Part shown: in pieces, positions 3,358 to 23,862 of the stretch
Position numbering within the stretch: position 1 is the stretch's first letter
How the letters are laid out: every line of letters starts with the position of its first letter
Origin: a virus
Virus record (IMG/VR): IMGVR_UViG_3300025120_007855
Location: 1-24,309 of that record
Reading direction: 5' to 3' (one strand)
DNA length: 24,309 nucleotides
Made by a program: the position numbers and the translations under genes
Notes under the pieces: model-generated
Seen by the model: the letters and a program-made list of their open reading frames with translations, nothing else
Told to the model about the DNA's origin: nothing
Databases searched by the model: none

Positions 3358-4217
3358 AAAATAATCCAATCAGGGCAATAGAGATCCGTAGTGTCTTTAT
3401 CTGCAAACGCAGTCCCGAACCAGTTTTTCGGAGCAATAACTTTTTTGTTAGGGTTTGACTGTAACCAGGCACCCCACCAACTCATACTACTATTAGCAAT
3501 AATAGCATGAGAACACAAAGACATCAAGCATAAATCAGCATATGGTGTTAAAGAACCATCGGCATATTTATCCACAGGTTCAGAAATTAAGAATCGATCT
3601 CCAGAGAAAAACTCTTGCTCTTTCACCCAATCAATAGAATCAGAGAATACAAACACGGGTTGATTATCATCAAATTGTGCAAGAGCGTTTTCATAATATT
3701 CAATAGTCTGAGGTGGATGCATCGATGAACACTGAGTATAACTCCATTTAAATCCACGGGCATCCGTTAGATTAGGATCACCACGTCGAACATGAAGCAT
3801 AATAGGTTCCTGATCCACATAAGGACTCATGATTTCTTTGCATGGCATCAAGTGTTCATCATGAAAAGTATACTCCCTCCTAATGATATCTTCTACATTC
3901 TTAAAGTATTTTTCAGATTGAAAAAATCCATGCAAACTAACGTTATCAAGACAACTTTTAACAAGATGTTCATCATAATGAAAATGTTTCTCTTGGTTAA
4001 ACTCGCCCGTACCTAGCATACCTAGATGGTTATCATCAACATCCTCCATCCTAAAACAATAGTGAAGACTGTAGTTCTCTCCAGTCGAACTTACAGCATT
4101 ATACGGAGGAATGCACCAGTCATATCCATGTGTTGCAGCAATACCACGCAGTGCTGCATACTCAAACATTTGATTACCTAGTCTTCCTAGATTTCCAAGA
4201 TGATTAAACGCTAGCAT
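3354..4217 (-). CDS. GT11 alpha-1,2-fucosyltransferase-like glycosyltransferase
   Basis: A 287-aa GT-B transferase of family 11, which moves fucose from GDP-fucose to the 2-OH of a galactose-type acceptor. The N-terminal motif GRLGNQMFEYAALRG (11-25), the donor-binding HVRRGD (142-147) and the C-terminal ANSSMSWWGAWL (241-252) are all intact, as is the HGFFQSEKYF motif near 96-105. It is a clear paralogue of the gene at 5757-6566, sharing the order and spacing of these motifs. It overlaps the next gene by 4 nt and its upstream neighbour by 14 nt. GT11 enzymes can accept GDP-L-galactose because it differs from GDP-fucose only at C6, which matters because a GDP-mannose 3,5-epimerase is encoded in the same operon. 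No signal peptide or membrane segment is visible. Confidence 0.9.
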   Translation of the reverse strand: MLAFNHLGNLGRLGNQMFEYAALRGIAATHGYDWCIPPYNAVSSTGENYSLHYCFRMEDVDDNHLGMLGTGEFNQEKHFHYDEHLVKSCLDNVSLHGFFQSEKYFKNVEDIIRREYTFHDEHLMPCKEIMSPYVDQEPIMLHVRRGDPNLTDARGFKWSYTQCSSMHPPQTIEYYENALAQFDDNQPVFVFSDSIDWVKEQEFFSGDRFLISEPVDKYADGSLTPYADLCLMSLCSHAIIANSSMSWWGAWLQSNPNKKVIAPKNWFGTAFADKDTTDLYCPDWIIL

Positions 4218-5016: not shown

Positions 5017-5764
5017 CTGGATACTTCCTGGTGTCAAAATATTCTGAGTGCTTCCTAACGATGTGTCCCAATTCTTGTTTATTTACCAACCAAGTTCTAG
5101 ACGAATCAGAAATGGTAGCGTCATAGTAAACGTTAGCAGCACTCATTCTGCCGTCATGCTCTCTGTTTGCGATCAACACATCATCAAGCATCTTTGGCAT
5201 ACCATGAATCCAACGCATTCTGTGATACAGTTCGGTATCGATGAGAAGTTTCATCTTTCCATCCATACCCTCATAAACACCGTTGAGAAATGCAGTACAT
5301 GATGGACTTCCAAGAAGGTTATCCCCTTCTATCATTCTAGGTGTCCACATAGGAGCACAATCTCTGTGAGTTTCTACACCATCTGTGGTGTGAGTGAATC
5401 CATGAATCAACCATTTAGCGCCATCTTGGAATGCATCAAAGATTTTTTGTAATGCATTATCATCAACAAACATGTCATCCTGATAGATTAGTTTGATGAT
5501 TCTACCCTCTGCATTTTCAATCGCACAATCAGTATTTGGTGCCTGATATCCACGTCCATTAGGGTTTTTAATGTAGGTAATATCAAAATCATAATGACAA
5601 TGACGACACCACTCCATGATCACATCGTCCACACTATGATCAGAGATTACAACATCAAAGTCTTGAAATGTTTGATGTGCAAGTGAGTCAAACAACTCTC
5701 CTAGAAACTCTACTCCCCTACCTTTATATTCGTAAGTGGGAATGCATACACTAATTTCAGACAT
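5006..5764 (-). CDS. Family 2 glycosyltransferase
   Basis: A 252-aa GT-A transferase. It opens with the typical GT2 strand ISVCIPTYEYKG (4-15), followed by LFDSLAHQTFQDFDVVISDHS (the nucleotide-binding S-D region, 34-53), a GRGYQAPNTD segment (70-79) that matches the loop binding the donor, and a DxD-like IYQDDMFV with D96-D97. The remaining half has no signature that fixes the sugar. It is a soluble protein without the C-terminal membrane helices of undecaprenyl-linked GT2 enzymes. The ATG overlaps the stop of the preceding GT11 gene by 8 nt, and the gene end overlaps the start of the next GT. It likely adds one residue of the glycan; donor and linkage are unknown. Confidence 0.85.
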   Translation of the reverse strand: MSEISVCIPTYEYKGRGVEFLGELFDSLAHQTFQDFDVVISDHSVDDVIMEWCRHCHYDFDITYIKNPNGRGYQAPNTDCAIENAEGRIIKLIYQDDMFVDDNALQKIFDAFQDGAKWLIHGFTHTTDGVETHRDCAPMWTPRMIEGDNLLGSPSCTAFLNGVYEGMDGKMKLLIDTELYHRMRWIHGMPKMLDDVLIANREHDGRMSAANVYYDATISDSSRTWLVNKQELGHIVRKHSEYFDTRKYPDED

Positions 5765-6566
5765 CTAGATACTCCCAACGATCAACGTAAATATCTGTAG
5801 GATCTTCACCATCAGGGCCGAACCAAAGTTTAGGCCCAATCACATTATCATGTCCTGCGAGCCATGCTCCCCACCAAGAAAAGGTGGAGTTAGCCATGAT
5901 GTTGTAGTTGCACATGGACATGAGGCACATATCATGTATGTTGTCACTCTCAGAGATAAAGAAACGATCAGATTCAAAGAATGAGTGTCCGAACGCCCAC
6001 GATGGATCATCCGTGAATACAAACACAGGGATATCTTTCGGCAGTCGTCCAAGTGCTTCTTCATAATAAGAGATTGGTAGGACTGGATGGAAAGTTGGTT
6101 TGACGAGATGATCAGTTCGTCGTACATGGAGAGCGATTGCTTCGGTATATCCTTCATCAATTACAATTTCTTTCCAAATTTCTTTACAGAGTTTTTGAAC
6201 TTCAGGTTTAAAAGTAAAGTCTTCACGAATCTCATTCGTGATGTCAACAAAATATTTCTCTGATTGAAAATATCCATAGAGATTTACATTGTGATCACAG
6301 TTTTCAAATAAATTAGAATCAAATCGAAAACTTGTTTCCTTCCGATAGGGTGCATTCAACACACCAATGTTCTTAGCACCTATCATATTAAATGCCATGA
6401 AGAGTTTGTGTTGATTCTCTTCATCAGTAAACTCATTGTCAGTTTTAGGCCCATCAGGAATGATGAAGTCAACCTCCTGATTATATGCAATACCTCTAGT
6501 TGCTGCATATTGAAACATCTGGTTACCAAACCTACCGTTCGTACCAATATGATTTTGTCCAATCAT
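5757..6566 (-). CDS. GT11 alpha-1,2-fucosyltransferase-like glycosyltransferase
   Basis: A 269-aa GT11 family enzyme, paralogous to the gene at 3354-4217. Motifs in order: GRFGNQMFQYAATRG (11-25), LYGYFQSEKYF (96-106), HVRRTD (147-152) and ANSTFSWWGAWL (225-236). In the donor-binding motif the usual HVRRGD carries Thr in place of Gly, which is a change at a well-conserved position; the two arginines are kept. The reaction would be transfer of fucose or a fucose-like L-sugar from its GDP derivative. Start ATG at 6566 overlaps the preceding DUF5672 stop by 4 nt (ATGA). Pairing with its paralogue suggests a local duplication followed by separation by two GT-A genes. Confidence 0.9.
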   Translation of the reverse strand: MIGQNHIGTNGRFGNQMFQYAATRGIAYNQEVDFIIPDGPKTDNEFTDEENQHKLFMAFNMIGAKNIGVLNAPYRKETSFRFDSNLFENCDHNVNLYGYFQSEKYFVDITNEIREDFTFKPEVQKLCKEIWKEIVIDEGYTEAIALHVRRTDHLVKPTFHPVLPISYYEEALGRLPKDIPVFVFTDDPSWAFGHSFFESDRFFISESDNIHDMCLMSMCNYNIMANSTFSWWGAWLAGHDNVIGPKLWFGPDGEDPTDIYVDRWEYLDV

Positions 6567-7273
6567 CCTAATTCAACTCCTGGGGGTAAGCGATAATGAA
6601 ATCCAAATGGGGTAATGCCTTCTGCTTCAGGAACTCTGGTTTCTTGTGAGAACCTAACTGCGACATCAACAGGTGCATATTTACATCCCTGTTCTACAAA
6701 GATGTGACGATTATGAACACAGACATTACCATCTTCATGATAGTTTACCACACCTTCAGGCATCCAATAGAAGTCACTGTTGTTTGTTTCCCATGGTACT
6801 TCTACTTTAGTTGGAACCTCTAGAAACTTCTTACTTCGGAAAGAAAATCCACCGTTGCCAACTCTATGATGATTGCCAAAAGGATCGATGTATGCGTCCT
6901 CTACAAGCGCCCAGGGAGCACCAATATAATCATATTCTAACCAAGTATCATCCCACTTGTCAGGGAATAATACAAACCCATCTGGTTGAACGAGGAGACA
7001 ATGAGAAGTGTCAACATGTTCATGCAGATGGTAGATTACATAATAGTTGTAATCATTATAGTTTTTAATATCACGAACAGAAGTTTCCATCGTGACACCT
7101 TCTTTCACAAGATCTGGATTTTTGTTAATCTGTTCTTGTGTGGTAATAAGTTTGACAGCACCATAATTAATGCCAGACATACTAGTAAAGACACCATTAA
7201 GAGTACCTGATAAATCATCTGTGGTGTCTACAGATATCAGAGTAACATCAGGTAGATTAATTTTTGGCATCAT
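6563..7273 (-). CDS. DUF5672 family putative glycosyltransferase
   Basis: A 236-aa protein of the DUF5672 family, thought to be glycosyltransferases from their fold and gene context but without a known reaction. The family pattern is seen in HCLLVQPDGFVLFPDKWDD (91-109), EYDYIGAPW (113-121), the Gly-rich RVGNGGFSFRSKKFLE (137-152), an ED-type acidic motif near 180 (NYHEDGNVCV), and the C-terminal PFGFHY (222-227). The QPDG and EYDYIGAPW segments resemble GT-A donor sites. Start is ambiguous between adjacent ATG codons at 7273 and 7270; the first overlaps the upstream stop by 4 nt. In cyanophages and bacteria this family commonly appears beside GT11 and GT25 genes, as here. Confidence 0.8.
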   Translation of the reverse strand: MMPKINLPDVTLISVDTTDDLSGTLNGVFTSMSGINYGAVKLITTQEQINKNPDLVKEGVTMETSVRDIKNYNDYNYYVIYHLHEHVDTSHCLLVQPDGFVLFPDKWDDTWLEYDYIGAPWALVEDAYIDPFGNHHRVGNGGFSFRSKKFLEVPTKVEVPWETNNSDFYWMPEGVVNYHEDGNVCVHNRHIFVEQGCKYAPVDVAVRFSQETRVPEAEGITPFGFHYRLPPGVELG

Positions 7274-8160
7274 AAATCACCATCATAAATGTTTGATTTC
7301 TTTTTGTACTCATCCCATTCTACTCTACATTCATCTGGTGTAAAGAGTTTTCCTTCTCGATCCATATAATATGTTGGATAACTGTAAATGCTACATCCTA
7401 AACTCCACCATCCTTTTGAAAGGTTGTGATGAAACCAATACTTAGGTGCAATGCACATTTCTAAGTGATCAGATGTCCATAAAGGAAAGCAAGAGAATGT
7501 AGATGTTGTACAGATAACATTTCTAGCATTCTTAATAGCAACATAATCCCATGCCACGTCAACATGATATGCTGGAATATCTGGAAGCATATTTTTGGCA
7601 GTTTCAACATCATCAGTAACAATACAATATTCCATGTCAGGATTATATTCCGACATATGCTGCATTGCATTATACCAATAAGATGCTGGAACATAGGCAC
7701 CAGCATTTCCAATCATGTCTCCACCACGGAAGTTCAATACACAAATATTTTTTCCATTGGTATCATGATGTTCGTGCATTATACGAATCTTTAACCAGTC
7801 TTTGACTAGATTAAGTTCATCATAAAAGTAATCTTCAGATTGAAAATTACCATAGATTATATGATTGTCAGGAATAGATAGTAAACCTTTATCAGTCAAA
7901 CGGATATCAGTATGCAACCGTTTGTCAGTATGTAATGCATGTCTGTATTCATTATATCTAACAAGATTATCAGGAACCTCTTTACCATAATCAAGGTTCA
8001 TAAAATAAAAACCTTTCTTATTAACTCTAGAGTCTCCTGCACTCTGAAGTCCTTTAATACCAAAATCATAACCCAGTCTACGGGCTAAGACTCTAGTTGT
8101 TACATATGCAAATAGTTGATTTCCAAGTCCTTGTCCATGCAAAAATTCAGTCGCTAACAT
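7270..8160 (-). CDS. Divergent GT11-like fucosyltransferase
   Basis: A 296-aa protein with the N-terminal GT11 motif GQGLGNQLFAYVTTRVLARR (9-28) and the GNFQSEDYFYDE motif (104-115), so the fold is that of an alpha-1,2-fucosyltransferase. The donor-binding motif is degenerate: FRGGD (144-148) replaces HxRRGD, with one arginine kept, and the C-terminal SSxSWWGAW motif is reduced to TSTFSCFPLW (219-228). Donor or acceptor use may therefore differ from the other two GT11 genes. I start at the ATG at 8160, which gives a 14-nt overlap; a TTG at 8190 would extend it by 10 residues with no support. The C-terminus is longer than in the neighbours (ending about 296) and rich in Lys and Asp. Confidence 0.78.
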   Translation of the reverse strand: MLATEFLHGQGLGNQLFAYVTTRVLARRLGYDFGIKGLQSAGDSRVNKKGFYFMNLDYGKEVPDNLVRYNEYRHALHTDKRLHTDIRLTDKGLLSIPDNHIIYGNFQSEDYFYDELNLVKDWLKIRIMHEHHDTNGKNICVLNFRGGDMIGNAGAYVPASYWYNAMQHMSEYNPDMEYCIVTDDVETAKNMLPDIPAYHVDVAWDYVAIKNARNVICTTSTFSCFPLWTSDHLEMCIAPKYWFHHNLSKGWWSLGCSIYSYPTYYMDREGKLFTPDECRVEWDEYKKKSNIYDGDL

Positions 8161-9442
8161 ATTCAGATGCCACTTTGCTGATATAATCAATCATCTTATT
8201 GGTGATTGTAGGCGAACATCCAAGGAAGAACACTAAGTCCAACACTTGGTTCGCGTTTGGATATTTATTCGCGTCATCAAGATGCGAATATCCAGGGTGA
8301 AGAAGAATGTTACCAGCAAAGTAATTTCTTGTTTGAACTTTATTATCTTCAAAATGTTTAACAAGAGAATGTTTCAGATTCTTATTTTCACAGAGAATCG
8401 GAACTCCAAACCAACTTGTCTCTGCATTTGGCATCTCATTCATCACGCGAATACCAGGAATACGCTCAACAATTTGATGGATCAACAATTTATTTTTGCG
8501 ACGTTTTTCATGTATCTCTTCAAACTTGAGGAGTTGTACTGAACCAACTGCACCTTGCAAGTCAAGAGGTTTCAGGTTATACCCCATATTTCCAAAGACA
8601 TACTTATGATCAACGATATCAGGATAATTTTCCAACCACTTATCAAATCGCCGTCCACATACACCATTAGACAACAGATTTTGTTGCCCTACACAATAGC
8701 ACCCACGTCCCCACCAAGCAAAACTACGTGCCAAGTCAATAATTGCTTTGTTGTTAGAGGACACCATACCACCTTCAATAGTGCAAATATGATGTGCAGG
8801 ATAGAAGGAGCATGATGCAGCTATAGCACGTTCTGTAAGATATTTTCCTTCATACTTACTACCAAGACTATCACAATTATCAGCAATTAATTCAATTTGA
8901 TGTCTATCAAGAATGTCATAAAGAGCATTCATATTATATGGATTACCTAGAACAGGAGAAGAAAAAACTGCTCTTGTTTTATCAGTTATTCTTGCTTCAA
9001 CTTGAGTCAAATCCCAATTAAGATCAGTCCAATCAATGTCAACAAAAACTGGTTTCAGTCCTGCCTGAACAATAGGAGCGACTGTTGTAGCAAACCCACA
9101 GGCACATACAATAATTTCGTCACCATCTGCCCAGTTGAAATATTTCTTCAATGCTGCAATCATTACTAGATTAGCAGATGAACCAGAGTTCACCATTACA
9201 GAATGTTTGAACCCAAACTTTCGCGAGAACTCATGCTCAAAACGATTTACCTTTTCACCAGAAGACAACCATTTACCCTTCATAATAGAGTAAATTAGTT
9301 CTCTCGCCTCACTATCATCCCAATAAGGCCCAGAGTAATAAATTGGTTTTCCTTCTTTCCAGTCTTTATTTGCCATGAATGGAAAGATGTCGTCATCCAT
9401 CTCTTTCGCGGACTCAATAAAGGTATCAATCAGTTGGTACAT
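8147..9442 (-). CDS. rfbH: RfbH-type CDP-4-keto-6-deoxyglucose 3-dehydratase (E1-like, PLP and [2Fe-2S])
   Basis: A 431-aa DegT/DnrJ/EryC1/StrS fold protein. The usual PLP lysine is absent: SFYPAHHI (212-219) has H217 there, the hallmark of E1/RfbH (also ColD) dehydratases that use PMP. It also keeps the E1 cysteine spacing C190-X57-C248-X1-C250, with a final C262 after X11 where E1 has X7, so a [2Fe-2S] cluster is likely. Other family segments are VNSGSSANL (84-92), ADNCDSLGSKYEGKYL (187-202), DHKYVFGNMGYNLK, and LQGAVGSVQL. The reaction would remove the C3 hydroxyl of a CDP-4-keto-6-deoxyhexose, on the route to 3,6-dideoxysugars. The partner reductase and CDP-glucose 4,6-dehydratase are not in the window. 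It starts at ATG 9442, overlapping the SDR gene by 13 nt. Confidence 0.88.
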   Translation of the reverse strand: MYQLIDTFIESAKEMDDDIFPFMANKDWKEGKPIYYSGPYWDDSEARELIYSIMKGKWLSSGEKVNRFEHEFSRKFGFKHSVMVNSGSSANLVMIAALKKYFNWADGDEIIVCACGFATTVAPIVQAGLKPVFVDIDWTDLNWDLTQVEARITDKTRAVFSSPVLGNPYNMNALYDILDRHQIELIADNCDSLGSKYEGKYLTERAIAASCSFYPAHHICTIEGGMVSSNNKAIIDLARSFAWWGRGCYCVGQQNLLSNGVCGRRFDKWLENYPDIVDHKYVFGNMGYNLKPLDLQGAVGSVQLLKFEEIHEKRRKNKLLIHQIVERIPGIRVMNEMPNAETSWFGVPILCENKNLKHSLVKHFEDNKVQTRNYFAGNILLHPGYSHLDDANKYPNANQVLDLVFFLGCSPTITNKMIDYISKVASEYVSD

Positions 9443-13361: not shown

Positions 13362-13978
13362 ACCAATCCTTTCCTAATGTATAGAGCATCTCCCCAAGTT
13401 TGAGATCCGTGCCATCCAGTAGCAACACGATCAAATTCTACCAGATACTTGTCTATATCACCAATCATAGCGTTGTTTTCATAAACTTCTGCTTGATTCA
13501 CCTCTGTGTAGATGTAATCGATATTCTCTAGAGTTTTTGTTCCTCCTTTCAGAACTTCAAGTTCGTATCCTTGAGTGTCCATATTCAGAAAATTGTAAGT
13601 ATGATATTCCGGGATCTCATCATCGAGTGTAGAAATTTCTACATCAAGAGTTTCTGAGAAGATAACATCTGGAGACAACTCTAGATGCACTTTTGGTTTT
13701 AGAATTGAACCACAGAGTCCTGTAGGATCTGATGTCATTTCTGCTCTACCGACTCTATTCCCAAGAGCTTTGTTAACAAGTTTAGCAGGCAGTTCAACTT
13801 GATTTGCTCTTGCAGTGAGTTTTTCAAAACAGTGTTGTTGTGGTTCAAAGATGATGATATTTTCAATATCTTTCATCTTATAGTCCATCAATTCATCACC
13901 AATGTGTCCACCTACATGAATAACACCGCTGATATTGATATTGTATTGCTTAATGAGTGAGCTTAGAGAGAGTAACAT
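13358..13978 (-). CDS. FkbM family methyltransferase
   Basis: A 206-aa SAM-dependent methyltransferase of the FkbM type, which O-methylates hydroxyls on polyketides and sugars. SAM motif I is GVIHVGGHIGDE (18-29), the acidic motif is IIFEPQ (42-47), and the family-typical NMDTQGYELEVLKGG (132-146) is followed by DYIYTEVN, a strong FkbM mark. It sits in the middle of the carbohydrate block, between an SDR and the 2OG oxygenase gene, so O-methylation of one sugar residue is the natural reading. The ATG overlaps the stop of the SDR gene by one base (TAATG). FkbM genes are common in cyanophage and bacterial LPS clusters. Confidence 0.9.
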   Translation of the reverse strand: MLLSLSSLIKQYNINISGVIHVGGHIGDELMDYKMKDIENIIIFEPQQHCFEKLTARANQVELPAKLVNKALGNRVGRAEMTSDPTGLCGSILKPKVHLELSPDVIFSETLDVEISTLDDEIPEYHTYNFLNMDTQGYELEVLKGGTKTLENIDYIYTEVNQAEVYENNAMIGDIDKYLVEFDRVATGWHGSQTWGDALYIRKGLV

Positions 13979-14967
13979 TATTTCCAGTAATCGTAGATGT
14001 CTTTAGTAACTTCGTATTCCATAACCTTTACTTTTCTATTAGGTTGTTTCATCCCCCAGACAAACATATTTTCAACCAACTCTACAAGGTTTGTATTGTC
14101 CGTAAAGTTAAGCATTGACTTTGCTTTTGTATGATCACAATAAGCATGTTTCACTTCATGACGGGGTTCACCATGTTGAATAGGTACTTCATATCCATAC
14201 TTTTTAGCAATACTCTGAACAGTATGTGCTACTTCATTAAGAGTGAAGTATTTGTCGGCTCCAATATTAAATACCTCACCATCAAATCCCGTCAGAAGTT
14301 TATCAAACGGTTCCATATAATATTTGATATCAGAGAAGGCGCGAGTTTGTTCACCATCTCCATAAACAAGGATAGGTTCTGAATTTAATGCTTTTCGGAT
14401 AAAGATACCAATGACATTACGGTACTTGTCCCAAATATTCTGATAGATACCCAGAACATTGTGAGGACGAACGATATTATATCGAAGTCCAAACTGCTCA
14501 TGAGCAAGTTTCAAATCACACTCTACCGCGTATTTTGCAATACCATATGGATCAACAGGTTGTGGGCGTTTATCTTCTGTAAATGGGGGCGTCTGTTCCC
14601 CATAGACAGCCATAGAAGAAGTGAAGATAATTTTCGTTCCGTAGGTGATACACTCATTGATCAAATTAGCGGAAACGATAAGATTATTACGATAGTTGTA
14701 ATTACGAATAAAAGGAGAAAGTCCTTCAGCCGCATACGCCGCGAAATGAAGGAGGACATCAGGTTGATGCTCCTCAAAAAGTTCAGCAACTTTCTTTCTC
14801 CTCTCTAAGTTTAGTTTTACAAACGTAAACTTCTCCCCTTTAGGTACAAAAGCTTTGTACCCTCCAGAGAGATCATCAATACCTATTACTTCATGTCCTG
14901 AGTCAAGAAGGTGGCGAGCATAGTTTGAACCAAGCAAACCTGCACATCCAGTTACAAAAATTTTCAT
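13978..14967 (-). CDS. NAD-dependent epimerase (UDP-glucose 4-epimerase-like SDR)
   Basis: A 329-aa extended SDR of normal length. It has the dinucleotide motif VTGCAGLLGSN (5-15), FAAYAA (75-80), the catalytic TSSMAVYGE (116-124) with S117 or S118, PYGIAKYA with Y141 and K145, RPHNVLG, and YGDGEQTRAFSDI (202-214), all typical of UDP-hexose 4-epimerases and related sugar epimerases. GalE-like interconversion of UDP-glucose and UDP-galactose is the best guess. Epimerases with other substrates share the pattern, so confidence in the exact reaction is modest. ATG at 14967 overlaps the preceding gene by 4 nt. Confidence 0.85.
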   Translation of the reverse strand: MKIFVTGCAGLLGSNYARHLLDSGHEVIGIDDLSGGYKAFVPKGEKFTFVKLNLERRKKVAELFEEHQPDVLLHFAAYAAEGLSPFIRNYNYRNNLIVSANLINECITYGTKIIFTSSMAVYGEQTPPFTEDKRPQPVDPYGIAKYAVECDLKLAHEQFGLRYNIVRPHNVLGIYQNIWDKYRNVIGIFIRKALNSEPILVYGDGEQTRAFSDIKYYMEPFDKLLTGFDGEVFNIGADKYFTLNEVAHTVQSIAKKYGYEVPIQHGEPRHEVKHAYCDHTKAKSMLNFTDNTNLVELVENMFVWGMKQPNRKVKVMEYEVTKDIYDYWK

Positions 14968-15794
14968 CTATAATCAATGATAAATTGTCTTTGCTCTTCA
15001 GTGTTAGCCCAACTGCAAGGAATGACAGGGATATAATCATCACCTAGTTCCATAACATGAACTTCAACATCTGTATTAAACAGCATAGTATAATTTAGGT
15101 GCTCAGTCAATAGCAAATCTGTAGTGAAAAGATTCTCAATATTGCTAGAACAGAGAGCGGCCGCCATAGCAAATGTACCAACACCTGATAATGCTAAATT
15201 TTTAGCAGACATAAGTGTTGCAAAATCTTCTTGAACTGAGGACGACTTTACCTGAACCTTATCAATTTTACGAAGTTCATGAACAATAGGATTCTTATCA
15301 TCCGGTTCAGTAATAAGAATACATTTATCAAAACTCTCAATCAAATTAAGATAAAAGATTAGAGGATTAGGAACATAGTTAGTTGGCGGATCAAATATAC
15401 GATGATAGTTGTCTCCGCTTCTCAAGTGCATGACAATAGTTTCATCGTCAAGTGCTTCTTTCTGAGGAATTTTAAGAAAAGGTGCTACGTATTCTTTACA
15501 GATACGACGCATATTAGCATAGATATAACTTCTTTCTACACCTGTTTCATTTTCTCCCTCACAAATTCCCTTTTCACAATGAACAAGGGGTTCCCACGAA
15601 TAATATCTACCTTTCCCCGCCCACTGTGAAGTGTGCGACATATCTTGAAAATCGACTTTGAAATCGCTGATAACATCATGATCAAGTTTTTGTCTAAAAA
15701 CAGACTTGTAACCTTCAGCAGCCATTAGGCAATTAGCAACCTGTTGGATGTTATTACCAAGTCTACCGCTCCAATGCGATACTTCAAATGTCAT
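14964..15794 (-). CDS. GT11/GT23-like fucosyltransferase-fold protein
   Basis: A 276-aa protein with a reduced fucosyltransferase pattern: WSGRLGNNIQQVANCLMAAE (8-27), which matches the GRLGNQMFQYA motif, then VMHLRSGDNY (121-130) in place of HVRRGD, and a C-terminal LALSGVGTFAMAAAL (200-214) where the SSxSWWGAW motif would be. The HxRxGD core keeps His, one Arg and Asp, so GDP-sugar binding is plausible. It is the most divergent of the four GT11-like genes here and the first to be translated. It starts at ATG 15794 (4-nt overlap). The family is probable; donor and acceptor are unknown. Confidence 0.7.
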   Translation of the reverse strand: MTFEVSHWSGRLGNNIQQVANCLMAAEGYKSVFRQKLDHDVISDFKVDFQDMSHTSQWAGKGRYYSWEPLVHCEKGICEGENETGVERSYIYANMRRICKEYVAPFLKIPQKEALDDETIVMHLRSGDNYHRIFDPPTNYVPNPLIFYLNLIESFDKCILITEPDDKNPIVHELRKIDKVQVKSSSVQEDFATLMSAKNLALSGVGTFAMAAALCSSNIENLFTTDLLLTEHLNYTMLFNTDVEVHVMELGDDYIPVIPCSWANTEEQRQFIIDYR

Positions 15795-16588
15795 GGAGTA
15801 ACTACTAGTTCATTTTGAATGTTAGCAATATCCTGATCCCAGTCAACGAAATTAGGATTTTCGCGATTAAAATGTAGATCATTCAACCAGTTACGATTCT
15901 CAAAAACTTCGTTCCAATCAATATTATCCTTAAACTTTTCAATACATTCAAGGTTTTTGAATTTGACGAAAGTCATTCCATAACTTTCTTTATGATGTTC
16001 AATCATAATATCATCATCTTCAAAATCATTGATATCACGGACACTAGTAGGAAGTCCAAAAAAGTCTGTAACTGCAACATCAGGGCGCTTCCAGAGTTTG
16101 CCACCAATAGTGTCTCCGTAAGTATCCTCTTGAACAACAGAATCCTGTCCTTGAGCACCTAACCAATGAGTGTCATGAAAAACAAGATAACCACCCTCTT
16201 TAAGATGTTCAACCCAAAAATACATTTCGGCTAAAACTTGCTCACGAGTGTGAATGGTATCAATAAAAATAATATCAAAAGGATCTTCGTCCCAGTTTTT
16301 TCCAAGAGTAACACTATCTGCTTGGTAACACATGTAGTTAGGTTTAACAAAACGAGATCCATTACTTTGGAAACCGTCAAACATCAAGTCACAACCGCAT
16401 ACTTGATTGGCATTTACATCTGCATCAATTGACATGATCGCAGATGATGCTCCAAGACGAACGCCCAAATCAATAAACCTTCCATTTTTGAAAGACTTTA
16501 CAAGTTCGGCAAGAACCCAAGCATTAACACCAAGATCACAATGTGGTTCATTGATAAAGTTTCTAATTTCAGTAAGATTAGTAGCCAT
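15791..16588 (-). CDS. Class I SAM-dependent methyltransferase (Methyltransf_24 type)
   Basis: A 265-aa Rossmann-fold methyltransferase. SAM motif I is GRFIDLGVRLGASS (36-49), an acidic post-I segment is CGCDLMF (64-70), and motifs IV and V are DIIFIDTIHTREQVLAE (105-121) and KEGGYLVFHDTHW (130-142). The FIDTIHTREQV and FHDTHW pair is typical of the Methyltransf_24/cephalosporin-hydroxylase-like group, which methylates sugars and small metabolites using a metal near the D...H pair. The last 90 residues are acidic and Asn-rich without a known domain. It lies between an SDR and a GT in the carbohydrate block and starts with an ATG overlapping the previous gene by 11 nt. Confidence 0.8.
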   Translation of the reverse strand: MATNLTEIRNFINEPHCDLGVNAWVLAELVKSFKNGRFIDLGVRLGASSAIMSIDADVNANQVCGCDLMFDGFQSNGSRFVKPNYMCYQADSVTLGKNWDEDPFDIIFIDTIHTREQVLAEMYFWVEHLKEGGYLVFHDTHWLGAQGQDSVVQEDTYGDTIGGKLWKRPDVAVTDFFGLPTSVRDINDFEDDDIMIEHHKESYGMTFVKFKNLECIEKFKDNIDWNEVFENRNWLNDLHFNRENPNFVDWDQDIANIQNELVVTP

Positions 16589-17432
16589 AGTTTTTTTTCA
16601 TTTCATTGAACACTTTTCTAATACCTGTGTCGATGGTAGTTTTAGGAACCCACCAACCAAGGATATAATTGTTTGCCTCATTCCTTTTATCCATCTGAAC
16701 ACTATCTTTAGCAAGTCCAGAACTGATCTTTACATCATATTTTTCAATCAATCCAAAACAACCCTGGATGATATCAGCAATCTCTCTAACAGTATTAGAA
16801 TGGAATGATGTAATGTGAAGTGGATCTTCTGGTTTGAAATCTGTGAAGTTCTCCATGATTGCTTCTAGTCCTTCACAGCAGTCCTCAGCATAGAGGAACT
16901 GACGCTCTTCAGTACCGTCAGTCATCATCTCAAATTGGCCCTCTTCAAACCCTTTATGGATGAAGTCAGTGATGACATGTGCCTTCTCATGATCCTTTTC
17001 AATACCATATACATTCCAGAACTTAACAGTCAGTCCTTTTAATGCAGCAGTATGAAGTTCGCCAACACGTTTCATCACACCATAAGGGGAGTAACTCATG
17101 TTACTCATCTGAGATGAAGCAAAGATAAATCTTTTCTTATGTTTTTCCAATAACTTGAAAGTGTTTGCCATCAAGCGAGTATTGTTATTGACAAACTCAA
17201 AAGTATGTTGGTACTTCTTTAGGTATCGTGAACCGCCAACATCAAAAGCAAGAAAGAATACAAAGTCAGCACTCTCAATTGACTTCTCTATGATAGTGCT
17301 TGGTGTCACTCTCAAATCATATTGAACACCATTTACAATATCAACATTAGTTACATGATGTCCTTTATTTTTTAAGTACTCAGACAGATATGCACCAATC
17401 TGTCCAGCAGATCCTAGGATTGTAATATTCAT
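16578..17432 (-). CDS. NAD-dependent epimerase/dehydratase (extended SDR)
   Basis: A 284-aa extended SDR, slightly short. The nucleotide-binding motif is ILGSAGQIGAYL (5-16), followed by FASSQMSNMSYSPYGVMK (104-121), in which SSQMS holds the catalytic Ser and Y117-x3-K121 the catalytic pair. FWNVYGIEKDHEKAHVI and EERQFLYAEDC are the usual substrate-side segments of nucleotide-sugar epimerases. The substrate cannot be read. Its ATG overlaps the stop of the GDP-mannose 3,5-epimerase gene by 4 nt, so the two might use related GDP sugars; that link is inference. No membrane segment. Confidence 0.82.
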   Translation of the reverse strand: MNITILGSAGQIGAYLSEYLKNKGHHVTNVDIVNGVQYDLRVTPSTIIEKSIESADFVFFLAFDVGGSRYLKKYQHTFEFVNNNTRLMANTFKLLEKHKKRFIFASSQMSNMSYSPYGVMKRVGELHTAALKGLTVKFWNVYGIEKDHEKAHVITDFIHKGFEEGQFEMMTDGTEERQFLYAEDCCEGLEAIMENFTDFKPEDPLHITSFHSNTVREIADIIQGCFGLIEKYDVKISSGLAKDSVQMDKRNEANNYILGWWVPKTTIDTGIRKVFNEMKKNYGY

Positions 17433-18475
17433 TTATTAGCAACCTGGGTAGCAATCCACTTATATGTTTTTCTAATTCCCTCTTCAAGTGTCTGAGAATA
17501 GTCCCATCCAAGTTTTTCGCGAATTAGATCATTATTAGAGTTACGTCCACGAACTCCAAGAGGCCCATCAATGTGATTTTTTTCCACATTTTTACCCGAT
17601 ACTCTAGCAGCAGTATTTACTAATTCATTAATAGTAACCATCTCCTCAGAACCAATATTAACAGGCCCAAGGAAGTCACTATCCATCAATCGTCGAGTCG
17701 CTTCAACGCATTCGTCAATGAACAAGAAGGAACGAGTTTGTAAGCCATCTCCCCACACCTCGATAGATCCACCGATCGATGAGAGTTCAGCGACTTTACG
17801 GCAGATTGCAGCTGGTGCCTTCTCTCTTCCACCGTCCCAGGTTCCTTCTGGCCCAAAAATATTGTGATACCTAGCAACCCGAACAGGAATACCATGGTTA
17901 CGGTTGTAAGCAAAGTAAAGTCTTTCGCTAAAGAGTTTTTCCCAGCCGTACTCCGAATCAGGAGCAGCAGGGTACGCAGATTCTTCACGGCAATCAGGGT
18001 TATCAGGATCGAGTTGGTTATGCTCTGGATACATACATGCTGATCCAGAGTAGAAGATTTTAGTTTTATTATGTCCTGTCATTTCATTCAACTGACGTTG
18101 TTCTTCAAGAACATTCAGATTGATAGTGACAGAGTTGTGCATAATATCTGCATCATTCTCTCCAGTGAATACAAATCCTGCTCCACCCATATCAGCAGCA
18201 AACTGATAGATCTCATCAAAAGGTTCTGCAAACTTATCCGCAATATCTTTGTAGAAGTTACCAAGATATCCAGTGAAGCGTGTACACCGTTTAACGAACC
18301 TAGTATCCCTCAAATCACCAAGAACAAATTCATTTGCTCTAGTAGAGGTAAATTCTGGTTGCTTAAGATCGACTCCACGAACCCAATAACCTTCTTCGCG
18401 GAGTCTCTTTACCATATGACTTCCAATAAAGCCACCTGCACCAAGCACCAGTGCAGTTTTATTATATTCAGACAT
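17429..18475 (-). CDS. GDP-mannose 3,5-epimerase
   Basis: A 348-aa extended SDR that closely follows the plant GDP-mannose 3,5-epimerase, which converts GDP-D-mannose to GDP-L-galactose and GDP-L-gulose. Motifs: LGAGGFIGSH (11-20), FAADMGGAGFVF (92-103), SGSACMYPE (143-151) with the general acid/base C147, EYGWEK with Y176 and K180, GREKAPAA with the second acid/base K219, EVWGDGLQTRSFLFIDECVE (239-258), PVNIGSEEMV, and GVRGRNSNN (307-315). The spacing C-29-Y-4-K-39-K equals that known for the Arabidopsis enzyme (C145, Y174, K178, K217). It is the first gene of the carbohydrate block, behind an extended -10 motif. I know few viral examples, so it is a firm family call with a striking context. 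Confidence 0.93.
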   Translation of the reverse strand: MSEYNKTALVLGAGGFIGSHMVKRLREEGYWVRGVDLKQPEFTSTRANEFVLGDLRDTRFVKRCTRFTGYLGNFYKDIADKFAEPFDEIYQFAADMGGAGFVFTGENDADIMHNSVTINLNVLEEQRQLNEMTGHNKTKIFYSGSACMYPEHNQLDPDNPDCREESAYPAAPDSEYGWEKLFSERLYFAYNRNHGIPVRVARYHNIFGPEGTWDGGREKAPAAICRKVAELSSIGGSIEVWGDGLQTRSFLFIDECVEATRRLMDSDFLGPVNIGSEEMVTINELVNTAARVSGKNVEKNHIDGPLGVRGRNSNNDLIREKLGWDYSQTLEEGIRKTYKWIATQVANK

Positions 18476-18733: not shown

Positions 18734-18913
18734 TTATTTAGTGTTGATTAAGTGAGAAATTTTGTGAGAGTGTTTTTCCCACAAAATTTCATAAAAATAA
18801 TATATGATTGTATATCCTATGTTTAAGATAATAGAGGTTGCCAATGATCCTGTGACAATGTAAGCAAACAACATTGACAGGACTCTATATCCAAGTGATT
18901 TAGCAAGTCTCAT
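18734..18913 (-). CDS. DUF2061 family membrane protein
   Basis: A 59-aa protein that matches the DUF2061 pattern: a basic start KSLGYRVL, a first hydrophobic segment ending in TGS (about 11-23), and a second helix (about 27-42) with the ending IIYYFYEILWEKH, close to the family end of hydrophobic residues, YYxHE and W. Two membrane segments are predicted, so it would sit in the host inner membrane. The function of the family is unknown; cyanophages often carry one. I start at the ATG at 18913, which overlaps the upstream stop by 14 nt; an upstream in-frame start at 18952 would overlap by 53 nt and is less likely. Confidence 0.75.
   Translation of the reverse strand: MRLAKSLGYRVLSMLFAYIVTGSLATSIILNIGYTIIYYFYEILWEKHSHKISHLINTK
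18735..18741 (-). promoter_or_regulatory. Late promoter CTAAATA
   Basis: CTAAATA, the cyanophage form of the T4 late promoter, lies 25 nt upstream of the ATG at 18710. It sits in the last codons of the DUF2061 gene, and a perfect 11-bp inverted repeat lies just upstream of it. Confidence 0.75.
18756..18790 (-). repeat. Perfect 11-bp inverted repeat before the late promoter
   Basis: GAAATTTTGTG (18756-18766) and CACAAAATTTC (18780-18790) are exact reverse complements with a 13-nt loop. It lies inside the 3' end of the DUF2061 gene and ends 14 nt before CTAAATA. There is no U-run, so a classical intrinsic terminator is not supported; an RNA end or control hairpin is possible. Confidence 0.6.
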
Positions 18914-19148
18914 ATGAACAAACACGATCTCTAGTATAACAAGGTACTCCATCTGGATCTAACCATTTGGTGTACTCAAAGTCATCAATCGCAGTCAAGA
19001 GTTGCATTTGATTATCTAGAAGATACATATCACTATATCTCTTCGTCCAACTGTTTGCTTTCTGAATACGATAGTCTGGCATATCGTTGATCTCCAACGT
19101 ACCACACTCAACATAACGATAGGGATAACGCTCTAATAAAACTTTCAT
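18900..19148 (-). CDS. Hypothetical protein, second gene of an early unit
   Basis: An 82-aa protein with no family I can name. It is aromatic and charged, with Tyr-rich stretches (RYPYRYVE at 7-14, DYRIQKANSW) and ends in RDRVCSYETC. The N-terminal half could form a small alpha-beta domain; no membrane segment or motif is visible. Its ATG overlaps the stop of the preceding gene by 4 nt (ATGA), and the gene is flanked by the DUF2061 gene, so it is probably translated from one early messenger with both. Expression follows the sigma-70 promoter at 19380-19408. Confidence 0.7.
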   Translation of the reverse strand: MKVLLERYPYRYVECGTLEINDMPDYRIQKANSWTKRYSDMYLLDNQMQLLTAIDDFEYTKWLDPDGVPCYTRDRVCSYETC

Positions 19149-19357
19149 GCTTCTACCGCTTCAAGATCGGCAGAAATTTGTTCCATCAAAATATCATAAT
19201 CATCAAGGGCATCACCTGAAAATACGACGCCAGTGTTCTCATAATAACGACGAACCTTTTTAAGAAGTTTTGGATTCTTCACATCTAGAAAAATTTCTCC
19301 AATCGCCGCACTGCGAAGAATTTGAATGTCTTTCTTGAATTTGCTAGTCAGTGTCAT
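19145..19357 (-). CDS. Hypothetical 70-aa protein, first gene of an early unit
   Basis: A 70-aa helical protein (MTLTSKFKKDIQILRSA at the start) with basic and acidic stretches, including PKLLKKVRRYYENTG and a C-terminal acidic helix DDYDILMEQISADLEAVEA. I choose the ATG at 19357 because a longer frame would start on a TTG that forms the first bases of a perfect -35 TTGACA box, so that TTG would lie upstream of the transcript. No function is known. A perfect sigma-70 promoter ends about 23 nt before the ATG, which marks it as an early gene. It overlaps the next gene by 4 nt. Confidence 0.72.
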   Translation of the reverse strand: MTLTSKFKKDIQILRSAAIGEIFLDVKNPKLLKKVRRYYENTGVVFSGDALDDYDILMEQISADLEAVEA

Positions 19358-19379
19358 TGTCGTGTGTGTTGACGAGTCA

Positions 19380-19408
19380 ATTATAACTGACTTATGTATT
19401 CTTGTCAA
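19380..19408 (-). promoter_or_regulatory. Perfect sigma-70 promoter TTGACA-N17-TATAAT
   Basis: TTGACA (19408-19403), a 17-nt spacer, then TATAAT (19385-19380): both hexamers match the bacterial consensus 6/6 with ideal spacing. The first bases of the -35 box overlap the TGA stop of the upstream 2OG gene. It drives the three-gene unit ending at 18734. T4-like phages use host-type promoters for early transcription. Confidence 0.88.
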
Positions 19409-21869: not shown

Positions 21870-22065
21870 AAATCTCGGATTCTTCTGTTTGATCCTCCAG
21901 TACAATATAATCCATTCCATCCATCTTGTCAAGATCAAACCACTCGTGCCATTCGTCCATCATAGCAAGTCTATCATGAACTTGTTCAATACTATCATTA
22001 CAGTCCATAGTATCAATACGTTTGATTGCCCAGTTACGAGCTTGCATCACCACATCCGTTTCCAT
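21868..22065 (-). CDS. Small acidic hypothetical protein
   Basis: A 65-aa protein, strongly acidic (C-terminal half rich in Asp and Glu: WHEWFDLDKMDG, then EDQTEESEI) and Met-rich, probably helical. No family is recognised. I start at the ATG at 22065 because a perfect sigma-70 promoter ends about 38 nt before it; a longer frame to 22281 would run 248 nt through the endonuclease gene and has no start signal. An internal ATG at 22047 would reduce the overlap with the endonuclease stop from 32 to 14 nt. Its stop codon meets the 5' end of tRNA-Arg. Confidence 0.6.
   Translation of the reverse strand: METDVVMQARNWAIKRIDTMDCNDSIEQVHDRLAMMDEWHEWFDLDKMDGMDYIVLEDQTEESEI
21904..21932 (-). promoter_or_regulatory. 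Sigma-70-like promoter upstream of tRNA-Arg
   Basis: TTGACA (21932-21927, exact), 17-nt spacer, TATATT (21909-21904, 5/6). It lies inside the 65-aa gene and would start RNA about 30 nt before tRNA-Arg. Confidence 0.65.
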
Positions 22066-22492
22066 AGTAGTCTTTTCTAAAGTATCTGCTGAGGATGTTG
22101 GAATTATAGTATTTGGGGACTCCTGTGTCAAGGGACTCTGTAAGGACTCCGTTAATAAAAAGTTGTTTTGTTTCTTCGAAGTTTGTTTTGCCGCCTGTTT
22201 TATGTAAAGACAGGATAGTTCTACTAAAGTTCTGTCTACCCAATTTGTCAATGTCCGCTTTAAGTTCTGGACAAGACCCATAGTACTTTCTCCAATCAGA
22301 TTCGGATTTTACTTTTCGTTTCTTTCCTTTAGGCGTTCTGTGCTTCCAAAAATACTTTCGCCCAATGTACTGTCGTTGGTTTGTGAGATTGGTAATGTTA
22401 TAAACAAAACCGTAGTTGTCCCGAATAAGGCTACCATCAAAGGGAACACCCAAATAGATCCATGGATTCTCATAATCAATATCGATACTCAT
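22034..22492 (-). CDS. GIY-YIG family (homing-type) endonuclease
   Basis: A 152-aa protein (from ATG 22492) with a GIY-YIG core: GFVY (28-31) and QYIG (41-44) followed by R45 on the next helix, spaced by NITNLTNQR as in Seg/Tev type nucleases. Next come a basic stretch (WKHRTPKGKKRKVKSESDW) and a YYGSCPEL motif, then NFEETKQLF with a candidate metal-binding Glu. The family cuts DNA near insertion sites in T4-like phages and spreads itself. It stands free, not in an intron, next to nrdB. A TTG one codon earlier (22495) is an alternative start. A perfect 10-bp hairpin with a late-promoter-like motif lies 20 nt upstream, and the gene's own 3' part holds a perfect early promoter for the next genes. 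Confidence 0.8.
   Translation of the reverse strand: MSIDIDYENPWIYLGVPFDGSLIRDNYGFVYNITNLTNQRQYIGRKYFWKHRTPKGKKRKVKSESDWRKYYGSCPELKADIDKLGRQNFSRTILSLHKTGGKTNFEETKQLFINGVLTESLDTGVPKYYNSNILSRYFRKDYYGNGCGDASS
22103..22131 (-). promoter_or_regulatory. Perfect sigma-70 promoter TTGACA-N17-TATAAT
   Basis: TTGACA (22131-22126), a 17-nt spacer, TATAAT (22108-22103), both 6/6. It lies within the 3' part of the endonuclease coding sequence and points at the 65-aa gene and the tRNA block. The second such perfect element in the window, so chance is unlikely. Confidence 0.85.
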
Positions 22493-22637
22493 CAATAATG
22501 TTTAATACCTTATCGAGATATTTATGTGCCATATCTCGATCTCCTTGCCACACTGTCTTAGGTTCTTCGTATACATCATTCTTTAATTGAAGTATACGAT
22601 TCTTCAACTCATCTTTCTTCAATTCATTCTTAGGCAT
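22476..22637 (-). CDS. Small hypothetical protein (53 aa) between nrdB and the endonuclease
   Basis: A 53-aa ORF beginning MPKNELKKDELKNRILQLKN and ending DKVLNIIDEYRY. It is highly charged and helical with Leu/Ile every three to four residues, so a small coiled-coil or helical hairpin is plausible. No family name. It starts at the ATG at 22637, about 35 nt after the nrdB stop, and overlaps the endonuclease start by 17 nt. The start codon is in a predicted hairpin. Frame and position make it a likely real gene even though it is short. Confidence 0.65.
   Translation of the reverse strand: MPKNELKKDELKNRILQLKNDVYEEPKTVWQGDRDMAHKYLDKVLNIIDEYRY
22512..22540 (-). repeat. Perfect 10-bp inverted repeat with a late-promoter-like motif
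   Basis: ATCGAGATAT (22512-22521) and ATATCTCGAT (22531-22540) are exact reverse complements around a 9-nt loop. On the minus strand CATAAATA (22526-22519), a 7/8 match to TATAAATA, spans the loop and the 3' arm. The endonuclease ATG (22492) is 20 nt downstream. It lies in the 53-aa coding sequence. Confidence 0.6.
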
Positions 22638-22671: not shown

Positions 22672-23862
22672 TTAGAGTTGGAATCCACTGAATGTGTCCT
22701 TTTTCACATCTTGCTTGATTCCACCAACAACATAAGACTCAACCTCAGTCTCTTGTGGTGCCACCTGAAGTCCCTTAGAAGAGATCCAGTGCTGCGTCCA
22801 GGGCAGTGGATTGGCAGATGCTGCAATATCATACACTGGTTTCAATCCAATACCCTTTAAACGACGATTAGCAATCCACTCAACATACTGTTGGAGTAGT
22901 TTATCATTCAAACCAATCATAGATCCATCCTTGAACAGATAGTCTGCCCAACGCTTCTCTTCGTTCACAGCACGATCAAATGCCTTGTAAGTCCACTCTT
23001 CTTCCTCTTTCATAATCTGTGCCATTTCAGGATCATCACCTTTCTTCCACTTATTCAGAATGTTTTGGGTGATGGCAAGGTGTTGATTTTCGTCTCTTGC
23101 AATGAGGGAGATGATCTTGGCGGATCCCTCCATAAGTTTGAGTTCACCGAACGCGAAACTACAAGCAAAAGAAACATAAAAACGAATACCTTCCAATATA
23201 TTGACATTGGCAACTGCTTTATAAAGTTTTCGTTTAAGTTCGTACTTCCCTTCTAGCGCATATGGAACTTGCTCTAATGCATGTTGCCAATCGTTAGAAT
23301 TATCATACTGATGAGCACTCTGAATAAAGTTATCATATGCCTCTGTAACGCTACTAGCACGTTCTAGAATGCGATCATCAGTGACAATCTTATCAAATAC
23401 CTCTGAAGGATCTGCATAGATGTTCTTGATGATGTAGGTATAGGAGCGACTATGGATCATCTCCATAAATCCCCAGACTTCCATACATGCTTCCAGTTCA
23501 GGTAAGGAACAGTAAGGAATGAATGCCATTCCAGGTCCTCTACCTTGAATAGAGTCAAGCATGATCTGATACTTCAGATTAGAAGTATAGATGTGTTTTT
23601 GTTCTGGACGTAGTAGTTGATAGTCACCACGATCCTTTTGTAGGGATACTTCTTCGGGACGCCAAAAAAATCCAAGTTGTTGAGTAGTTAACTTATCAAA
23701 TATAGGATATTTGTAAGAATCATACCTCTGAATACCCAGAGGTTTACCAAAGAACATTGGTTGTTTTTTGGTATCTACTTGTTCTGTATTAAAGACAGTC
23801 ATTCCTTGAACATCTGTCTTTGAATTTTGTACCGATGAAACCTTAAACTGCACAGGATTCAC
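22672..23862 (-). CDS. nrdB: Class Ia ribonucleotide reductase beta subunit
   Basis: A 396-aa NrdB that holds the di-iron tyrosyl radical and works with NrdA to make deoxynucleotides for phage DNA. Iron ligands and the radical site are all present: D103 in MLDSIQGR, E134 and H137 in FMEMIHSRSY, the radical Y141, E240 in SFAFGE, and E258 and H261 in ARDENQH. The entry FFWRPEEVSLQKDRGDY (65-81) and the later KRWADYLFKDGSMIGLN (about 305-321) follow the E. coli-type enzyme. The C-terminus ends in FSGFQL, the tail that docks on NrdA. The N-terminal 40 residues are less conserved. The ATG at 23862 overlaps the nrdA stop by 20 nt. Cyanobacterial hosts usually carry class II enzymes, so the phage brings its own class I type. 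Confidence 0.97.
   Translation of the reverse strand: MNPVQFKVSSVQNSKTDVQGMTVFNTEQVDTKKQPMFFGKPLGIQRYDSYKYPIFDKLTTQQLGFFWRPEEVSLQKDRGDYQLLRPEQKHIYTSNLKYQIMLDSIQGRGPGMAFIPYCSLPELEACMEVWGFMEMIHSRSYTYIIKNIYADPSEVFDKIVTDDRILERASSVTEAYDNFIQSAHQYDNSNDWQHALEQVPYALEGKYELKRKLYKAVANVNILEGIRFYVSFACSFAFGELKLMEGSAKIISLIARDENQHLAITQNILNKWKKGDDPEMAQIMKEEEEWTYKAFDRAVNEEKRWADYLFKDGSMIGLNDKLLQQYVEWIANRRLKGIGLKPVYDIAASANPLPWTQHWISSKGLQVAPQETEVESYVVGGIKQDVKKDTFSGFQL

Follow-up and report, generated by a model that had tools for sequence, protein, structure and literature searches.

A predicted GDP-mannose 3,5-epimerase at the fucose-gene slot of a cyanophage glycan island, with a probable role in supplying GDP-L-galactose

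GDP-mannose 3,5-epimerase (GME) has been described in a cyanophage before. A 2022 report names it in phage S-SCSM1, along with GMD, the GDP-L-fucose synthase FCL and fucosyltransferases (PMC9602691), and PMC10665884 repeats the assignment. The subject here is the corresponding gene, at positions 17429-18475 on the minus strand, of a 24,309-base virus record, IMGVR_UViG_3300025120_007855, the whole of which is referred to as the window. The main genes of the window lie on the minus strand and its best matches are Synechococcus phages, for example Bellamy and S-SM2; it may be a 24-kb fragment of a phage genome. The S-SCSM1 gene (ORF123, GDP-mannose-3',5'-epimerase; MK867354; PMC9602691) is 64% identical to that of the window and is likewise found downstream of GC250-type genes, with a gene of the glycosyltransferase family GT11 three genes beyond it. 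The two loci differ in that S-SCSM1 carries a GMD-FCL-GME tandem, farther from its own GC250 and followed by a gene other than GC254, whereas the window GME stands alone within 24 kb. GME is therefore already known as a gene of cyanophages, in which it is common, and the window GME is a further member. What is new here is its position. It occupies the place, between GC249-GC250 and GC254, that is held by GMD-FCL in phage P-SSM2.

The Arabidopsis GME (structures 2c59, 2c54, 2c5a and 2c5e) shares with the window protein the same fold and all eight of the active-site residues considered below. It differs in sequence (49% identity), the window GME having some 18 extra residues around positions 58-84, and in function, the plant enzyme serving ascorbate and wall synthesis. 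No ascorbate-route gene was recognised among the 23 window proteins in profile scans. GM35E of Methylacidiphilum fumariolicum, the first characterised bacterial GME, is 50.5% identical to the Arabidopsis enzyme according to PMC6678494. It is a cellular enzyme and, like the window protein, a GME of bacterial type. At the equilibrium of the bacterial enzyme GDP-L-galactose is the larger product, which is said in the same paper to agree with the plant enzyme (PMC6678494). The GMD-FCL pair of P-SSM2, S-SRM01, ACG-2014f and S-CAM7 resembles GME in having small conserved genes upstream and a GT11 gene downstream; the flank genes compared were those of phages other than S-CAM7. Unlike GME, the pair comprises two genes and leads to a 6-deoxy sugar, and FCL has the residues Cys/His/Lys in place of Cys/Lys/Arg. 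With regard to the transferases, the GT11 enzymes WbgN of E. coli and human FUT2 accept GDP-beta-L-galactose, GDP-L-fucose and GDP-L-colitose, as stated in a 2025 paper (PMC11987014). These are a better precedent for the use of GDP-L-galactose by GT11 enzymes than the Arabidopsis xyloglucan enzyme on which an earlier sequence-only reading of the window had relied. The xyloglucan enzyme is a member of CAZy family GT37 and not of GT11. How other fucosyltransferases transfer L-galactose is reviewed in PMC8787198, as is the mur1 case; no passage on L-galactose was found in PMC7725333.

The 17429-18475 gene, the first of the island, is an intact open reading frame which begins with ATG and encodes 348 amino acids. 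Every sequence and fold test run identifies its predicted product as a GDP-mannose 3,5-epimerase. In a phmmer search of PDB sequences, Arabidopsis GME 2c59 was the top match (E 1.7e-86), and the five best matches were all GMEs (E 1.7e-86 to 4.8e-84), the sixth dropping to E 5e-21. The catalytic positions given in the sequence-only reading, C147, Y176, K180 and K219, are exact, aligning with Arabidopsis C145, Y174, K178 and K217. The window GME retains the acid/base pair C147/K219 and the triad S145-Y176-K180, together with R311, which corresponds to the Cys-acidifying arginine (Arabidopsis R306), R248, which corresponds to the diphosphate-contacting arginine (Arabidopsis R243), and N205 (Arabidopsis N203). 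The NAD motif GxxGxxG is present at G12/G15/G18. The eight diagnostic residues from S145 to R311 were followed in an alignment that combined Arabidopsis GME with 80 bacterial and 159 distinct viral sequences, identical rows and rows of fewer than 300 or more than 420 amino acids having been excluded. All eight were intact in 158 of the 159 viral and in all 80 bacterial homologues, the single miss being a gap. Such conservation is well outside what chance would produce; 283 loci with a GME match had been counted before this filtering.

According to PMC8787198, GME can be told from GDP-fucose synthase by a Lys rather than His as the base and by an Arg rather than Lys beside the Cys. Five phage FCL controls have Cys/His/Lys where the window GME has Cys147/Lys219/Arg311, and four GMD controls have Glu at the Cys position. 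The residue test separates GME because the FCL controls give His and Lys and the GMD controls give Glu; R248 and N205 also occur in FCL decoys and are therefore not discriminating. Curated models agree, the window GME scoring 93.3 bits on the FCL model (cut-off 500) and 65.7 bits on the galE model TIGR01179 (cut-off 262.3). An AlphaFold2 model of the protein has a mean predicted local distance difference test (pLDDT) score of 82, and the 14 best matches to it in a Foldseek search of the PDB were all GME chains, the first with E 1.8e-33 and a TM-score of about 0.8. Compared with eight viral relatives, the gene shows a ratio of non-synonymous to synonymous change (pN/pS) of 0.147-0.194 and is under purifying selection.

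The description of the enzyme as plant-like in the sequence-only reading is true of its active site, in which all eight residues are shared, but not of its descent. The window GME is of bacterial type as judged by identity, which is 49.2% to Arabidopsis GME and has a median of 68.8% across 80 bacterial homologues, the latter being the best 80 matches to the window GME and hence picked by likeness to it. In a quick tree the viral rows fall among the bacterial rows, and a starred branch separates them from Arabidopsis. The exact place of Arabidopsis in this tree is unsure, because its row has a long branch and the bacterial rows were chosen as best matches. On the grounds of identity and of the position of the viral rows, a plant origin was rejected. 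Within the phage collection 42 records match the window GME at E 1e-20, of which 37 do so at 60% identity or above, and IMG/VR contains at least 599 stretches with a confirmed GME match; the IMG/VR and genome sets taken onward were the best 80 of at least 600 matches listed. Several of the phage relatives are annotated as 'UDP-glucose 4-epimerase', and misannotation of this kind is described as frequent in PMC8787198.

Some relatives were found in cellular records. A contig of a Rhodobacteraceae metagenome-assembled genome (L086), with GC250-GME-GC254 and three GT11 genes, looks like a cyanophage contig inside a bacterial bin. Two Prochlorococcus single-cell contigs (L087 and L088) carry GME followed by a GC254-type short-chain dehydrogenase/reductase (SDR) and fall among the viral rows of the tree with unstarred support; phage-to-host transfer is possible, as is the presence of phage contigs. 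The GME of L085 lies among host chromosome genes, judged from translations of its neighbours.

The slot in which GME resides can be defined by its flanks. Upstream in the window are a T4-GC249 orthologue (19145-19408, minus strand; 66% identity to P-SSM2 GC249, 80% to S-SM2) and a T4-GC250 orthologue (18900-19148, minus strand; 68% to P-SSM2 GC250, 79% to S-SM2). Directly downstream is an SDR of the T4-GC254 type (16578-17432, minus strand; 57% identity to P-SSM2_259, T4-GC 254), which retains the triad but has Met where GME and FCL have their Cys, the base position being occupied by His. The order in P-SSM2 is GC249-GC250-GC251-GMD-FCL-GC254, followed by GT11 (GC260) and GT25 (GC266), while that in the window is GC249-GC250-GME-GC254, again followed by GT11 and GT25. 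Other cyanophages have GME, GMD-FCL, both or neither near GC250. No title on an exchange of GME and GMD-FCL was found in the literature searched, whose coverage lay largely outside subscription papers.

Three samples bear on how far the two modules alternate. Among the IMG/VR loci anchored on GC250 (149 loci, 90 with at least 3 kb downstream, 82 clusters at 95% identity, viewed to a depth of 9 kb), the 82 slots hold GME only in 51, GME and GMD in 5, GMD and FCL only in 5, all three in 5 and none in 16. Of 71 clusters anchored on GT11, 19 have GME, 16 FCL, one both and 37 neither (expected overlap 4.3, P 0.03; P 0.008 for the 57 clusters with at least 12 kb); 'neither' may here mean out of view, because the flanks extend to at most 10 kb. 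Both kinds of anchor were ranked by likeness to the proteins of the window or of P-SSM2. Among isolates the overlap of GME and GMD-FCL was seen once, in S-SCSM1, giving P 0.0012 over 19 hand-grouped entities which include some partial single-cell contigs and are uncorrected for relatedness. When only records searched as a whole are counted, the 15 lineages comprise nine that carry GME (one also carrying GMD), five with GMD only and one, phage B23, with neither (P about 0.011 by hand). A strict either/or relationship was considered and is weakened by the overlap in the GC250-anchored set. GME and GMD-FCL tend to alternate but do not always do so. Separately, GMD-like genes with 46% identity or about 164 bits, below the GMD cut-off, occur in the islands of Bellamy, of SynMITS9220M01 and of three IMG/VR slots with GME (L166 32328-33347; L319, L343 and L350); these perhaps encode another sugar-nucleotide dehydratase.

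The sequence-only reading had four GT11-like genes following GME. Two of these are clear, both on the minus strand and both above the PF01531 gathering cut-off of 23.9: a GC260-like gene at 5757-6566 (87.5 bits; 44% identity to P-SSM2 GC260) and a second copy at 3354-4217 (81.5 bits). A third, at 7270-8190 (minus strand), encodes a divergent GT11-like protein, which had no Pfam match at E up to 5 but matches PHROG 2644 (E 2.1e-14) and aligns with the GT11 profile at 97% probability in hhalign. For the fourth, at 14964-15794 (minus strand), the label is unsupported: neither Pfam nor PHROGs gave a GT11 match, no PDB match was obtained, and the hhalign probability for GT11 was 18.8%. Its product is a conserved cyanophage-island protein with relatives in 19 viral loci. 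It contains the motifs SGRLGNN and HLRSGD, which are reminiscent of GT-B fucosyltransferases; beyond such short motifs no homology to GT11 is detectable at the level of sequence. With the phage GT11 profile itself, no PDB chain was found by sequence at E 0.1.

The association of GME with GT11 is supported. A PF01531 match is present in all 17 whole isolate records with GME, some of which are near-copies of one another, and in Bellamy, SynMITS9220M01, S-PRM1, S-8S53 and S-CAM9 GME is directly followed by a PF01531-matching gene. In 198 viral GME loci, not dereplicated, the gene directly after GME is GC254 in 38 and GT11 in 25. GMD exceeds its cut-off in only one of the 17 isolate records, S-SCSM1, two more having weak GMD-like matches of about 164 bits. 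It does so in six of seven comparison phages, six of the seven having been selected for matching FCL or GMD; these seven gave no GME-level match, the best reaching 76 bits, at FCL genes where present. The FCL, GMD and GT11 record sets were drawn from among the matches listed, 60 rows each. In AG-345-E08, a 22.8-kb contig with GT11, no GME was found among the phage-collection matches, and FCL and GMD were not among the matches listed.

The history of the transferases was examined in a GT11 tree of 103 sequences, thinned from 151, of which 79 come from GME islands and 24 from FCL islands. Loci with both modules or neither were excluded and three isolate loci were skipped, and the IMG/VR module labels derive from flanks of up to 10 kb. 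The tree requires at least nine switches between the GME and FCL labels, five of them forced by starred branches. With the labels shuffled 500 times the mean was 21.7 switches, and nine or fewer never occurred. Module labels therefore cluster on the GT11 tree, yet the same GT11 lineages adjoin either module several times.

Taken together, these results make it probable, at roughly 60%, that the cyanophage GME makes GDP-L-galactose for the GT11 enzymes of its island and for a surface glycan, as sequence comparison and modelling suggest. In the proposed mechanism the GME of a T4-like cyanophage would act on host-made GDP-mannose during infection. The reaction would pass through a 4-keto intermediate bound to the enzyme and yield chiefly GDP-L-galactose, along with a smaller amount of GDP-L-gulose. 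Glycosyltransferases encoded in the same island, the GT11 enzymes being the likeliest, would then use the product as donor and attach L-galactose to a glycan at the surface, either host lipopolysaccharide (LPS) or capsule or a virion glycan. In some relatives GMD-FCL in the same place would supply GDP-L-fucose to the same transferase family. The sequence work establishes the intact gene, its family, its slot synteny with P-SSM2 and its association with GT11, from which catalysis by GME, the donor choice of GT11 and the glycan are inferred; an L-galactose glycan directed by the phage is plausible. The supply of substrate was assessed in the family to which Prochlorococcus AG-409-M05 belongs, through 151 genomes of unstated completeness. 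A ManC-type match is present in 138 of them, 136 over cut-off, so GDP-mannose should be on hand in the hosts. GME itself was found in one of the 151. The L-galactose pathway of the sequence-only reading thus survives in the identity of GME, its association with GT11 and its rarity in hosts, but not in the plant origin, the four GT11 genes or the argument from a missing gene.

That last argument held that the lack of a GDP-fucose synthesis gene points to L-galactose or L-gulose rather than fucose. The absence is real for the 24,309 bases: against an FCL cut-off of 500 bits the four SDRs found score 93, 33, 45 and 39, and all of them stay below the 415 set for GMD. The conclusion drawn from it is not supported, the window being a fragment and the hosts appearing able to provide GDP-fucose. 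The search of host genomes for GDP-fucose synthase which that reading had proposed gave FCL-type matches at E 1e-60 in 88 of the 151, although none over the curated cut-off, and GMD matches in 93, of which 89 were over cut-off. GDP-fucose is thus likely to be on hand in many hosts, and the absence of FCL from the window therefore says little. Several other observations also weigh against the proposed role. In the window, roughly 11 and 13 kb separate GME from the clear GT11 genes downstream, and GME is directly followed by the GC254 SDR. Phage B23 has GT11 with neither GME nor GMD-FCL. In the set anchored on GC250, GME is also present in five of the ten slots with GMD+FCL (7.4 expected by hand, P 0.07), and the modules are therefore not strictly alternative. 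No GT11 column was shown to track the module in independent tree pairs (652 tests, among the results listed), a kind of residue-signature test that is not usable here because only four to five such pairs exist. Finally, the model of GME has a pLDDT below 50 at residues 94-113, which adjoin the active site.

The most serious alternative, appreciably less likely than the role proposed above, is that GME works but GT11 draws on host GDP-L-fucose, GDP-L-galactose going instead to a GT2, GT17, GT25 or unnamed transferase. The host matches to FCL and GMD just cited would accommodate it, as would the presence of several other glycosyltransferases in the island (GT2, GT17 and GT25 in profile scans of the window proteins) and the separation of GT11 from GME in the window. 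Against such a division of labour, GT11 is present in every one of the 17 GME isolate records and directly after GME in 25 of the 198 viral loci, only 13 of the 151 host-family genomes have GT11 at E 1e-6, and B23 is the sole whole GT11 phage record tested for both modules to have neither.

An unlikely alternative is that GDP-L-gulose (or GDP-D-altrose) is the product that matters, or that the GC254 SDR processes the product of GME further, with L-galactose as only an intermediate. The position of GC254 directly after GME, both in the window and among 38 of the 198 viral loci, favours this. GC254 also follows FCL in P-SSM2, however, and is therefore not specific to GME, and GDP-L-galactose is the larger product at equilibrium in the account of the bacterial enzyme (PMC6678494). 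Slightly less likely still is that GME, GMD-FCL and GT11 share a slot only through recombination in flanking homology, the alternation recording recombination history with no swap of donor. Homologous genes do lie on both sides of the slot in the window and P-SSM2, and tandem GMD-FCL-GME copies exist, but the intact residues in 158 of 159 viral sequences and the low pN/pS speak against it, as does the presence of at least one module alongside GT11 in all whole records tested but one. That the gene encodes a UDP-glucose 4-epimerase or GDP-fucose synthase, as annotations of several relatives would have it, is highly improbable in the light of its scores (FCL 93 bits against 500, galE 66 against 262), its Cys/Lys/Arg rather than Cys/His/Lys residues and its best fold matches, which are GME chains.

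If the cyanophage GME does make GDP-L-galactose for GT11, marine picocyanobacteria would bear L-galactose as a surface sugar at the direction of the phage; of the 151 host-family genomes sampled, one has GME. With GME, what was loosely an 'LPS gene island' also poses a concrete chemical question, namely which of two GDP-L-sugars is made and whether the same GT11 enzymes take either. L-Fucose and L-galactose differ by one hydroxyl. More tentatively, and with the balance of judgement tilting against it, T4-like cyanophages may switch the L-sugar of the glycan they direct by swapping the GMD-FCL and GME cassettes at a fixed place while keeping their GT11 lineages, such that the terminal sugar seen by other phages and by grazers is set by donor supply and not by the sequence of the transferase. 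Such a sugar swap is testable, because some relatives carry fucose-making genes in the place of GME.

The gene order of the window runs from nrdB (22672-23862, assigned from matches to Synechococcus phages) through six tRNAs and small T4-GC genes to the island, which extends from 18475 to 546. At its far end is a GT25 glycosyltransferase gene (T4-GC266; 546-1385, minus strand; PF01755 56.7 bits; 63% identity to P-SSM2 GC266). An SDR resembling GalE and dehydratases is encoded at 13978-14967 (minus strand; TIGR01179 137 bits, below the cut-off of 262). The gene at 8147-9442 (minus strand) encodes a DegT-family protein like NDP-4-keto-6-deoxyhexose 3-dehydratases of the RfbH/E1 type (NF011936 364 bits against a cut-off of 423; PDB 3bcx E 1.7e-70). 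It is closest to CDP-4-keto-6-deoxy-D-glucose 3-dehydrase (3bcx) and ColD and carries SFYPAHH at the site where E1 and RfbH have a His replacing the pyridoxal phosphate lysine; a step towards a 3,6-dideoxyhexose is possible for its product.

At 1385-3369 (minus strand) a UDP-glucose dehydrogenase-like gene lies beside an NAD-synthase-type gene within the island. Sf-FS3 and S-SCSM2R have this pair in their annotation, and in S-SSM7 and P-TIM68 an NAD synthetase gene is followed by one similar in size to the dehydrogenase-like gene. The NAD-synthase-type product is perhaps a sugar-acid amide ligase and not an enzyme of NAD synthesis. Outside the island, the protein encoded at 22034-22495 (minus strand) resembles, by eye, a GIY-YIG protein labelled 'NAD synthetase' in many cyanophage records, and this label is likely to be a widespread misannotation. 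The wcaG RNA, which the records of S-SCSM1 (14893-14979) and S-SCSM2R (8226-8323) place upstream of the sugar module at a distance of one or two genes, gave no match with E up to 1 in the window.

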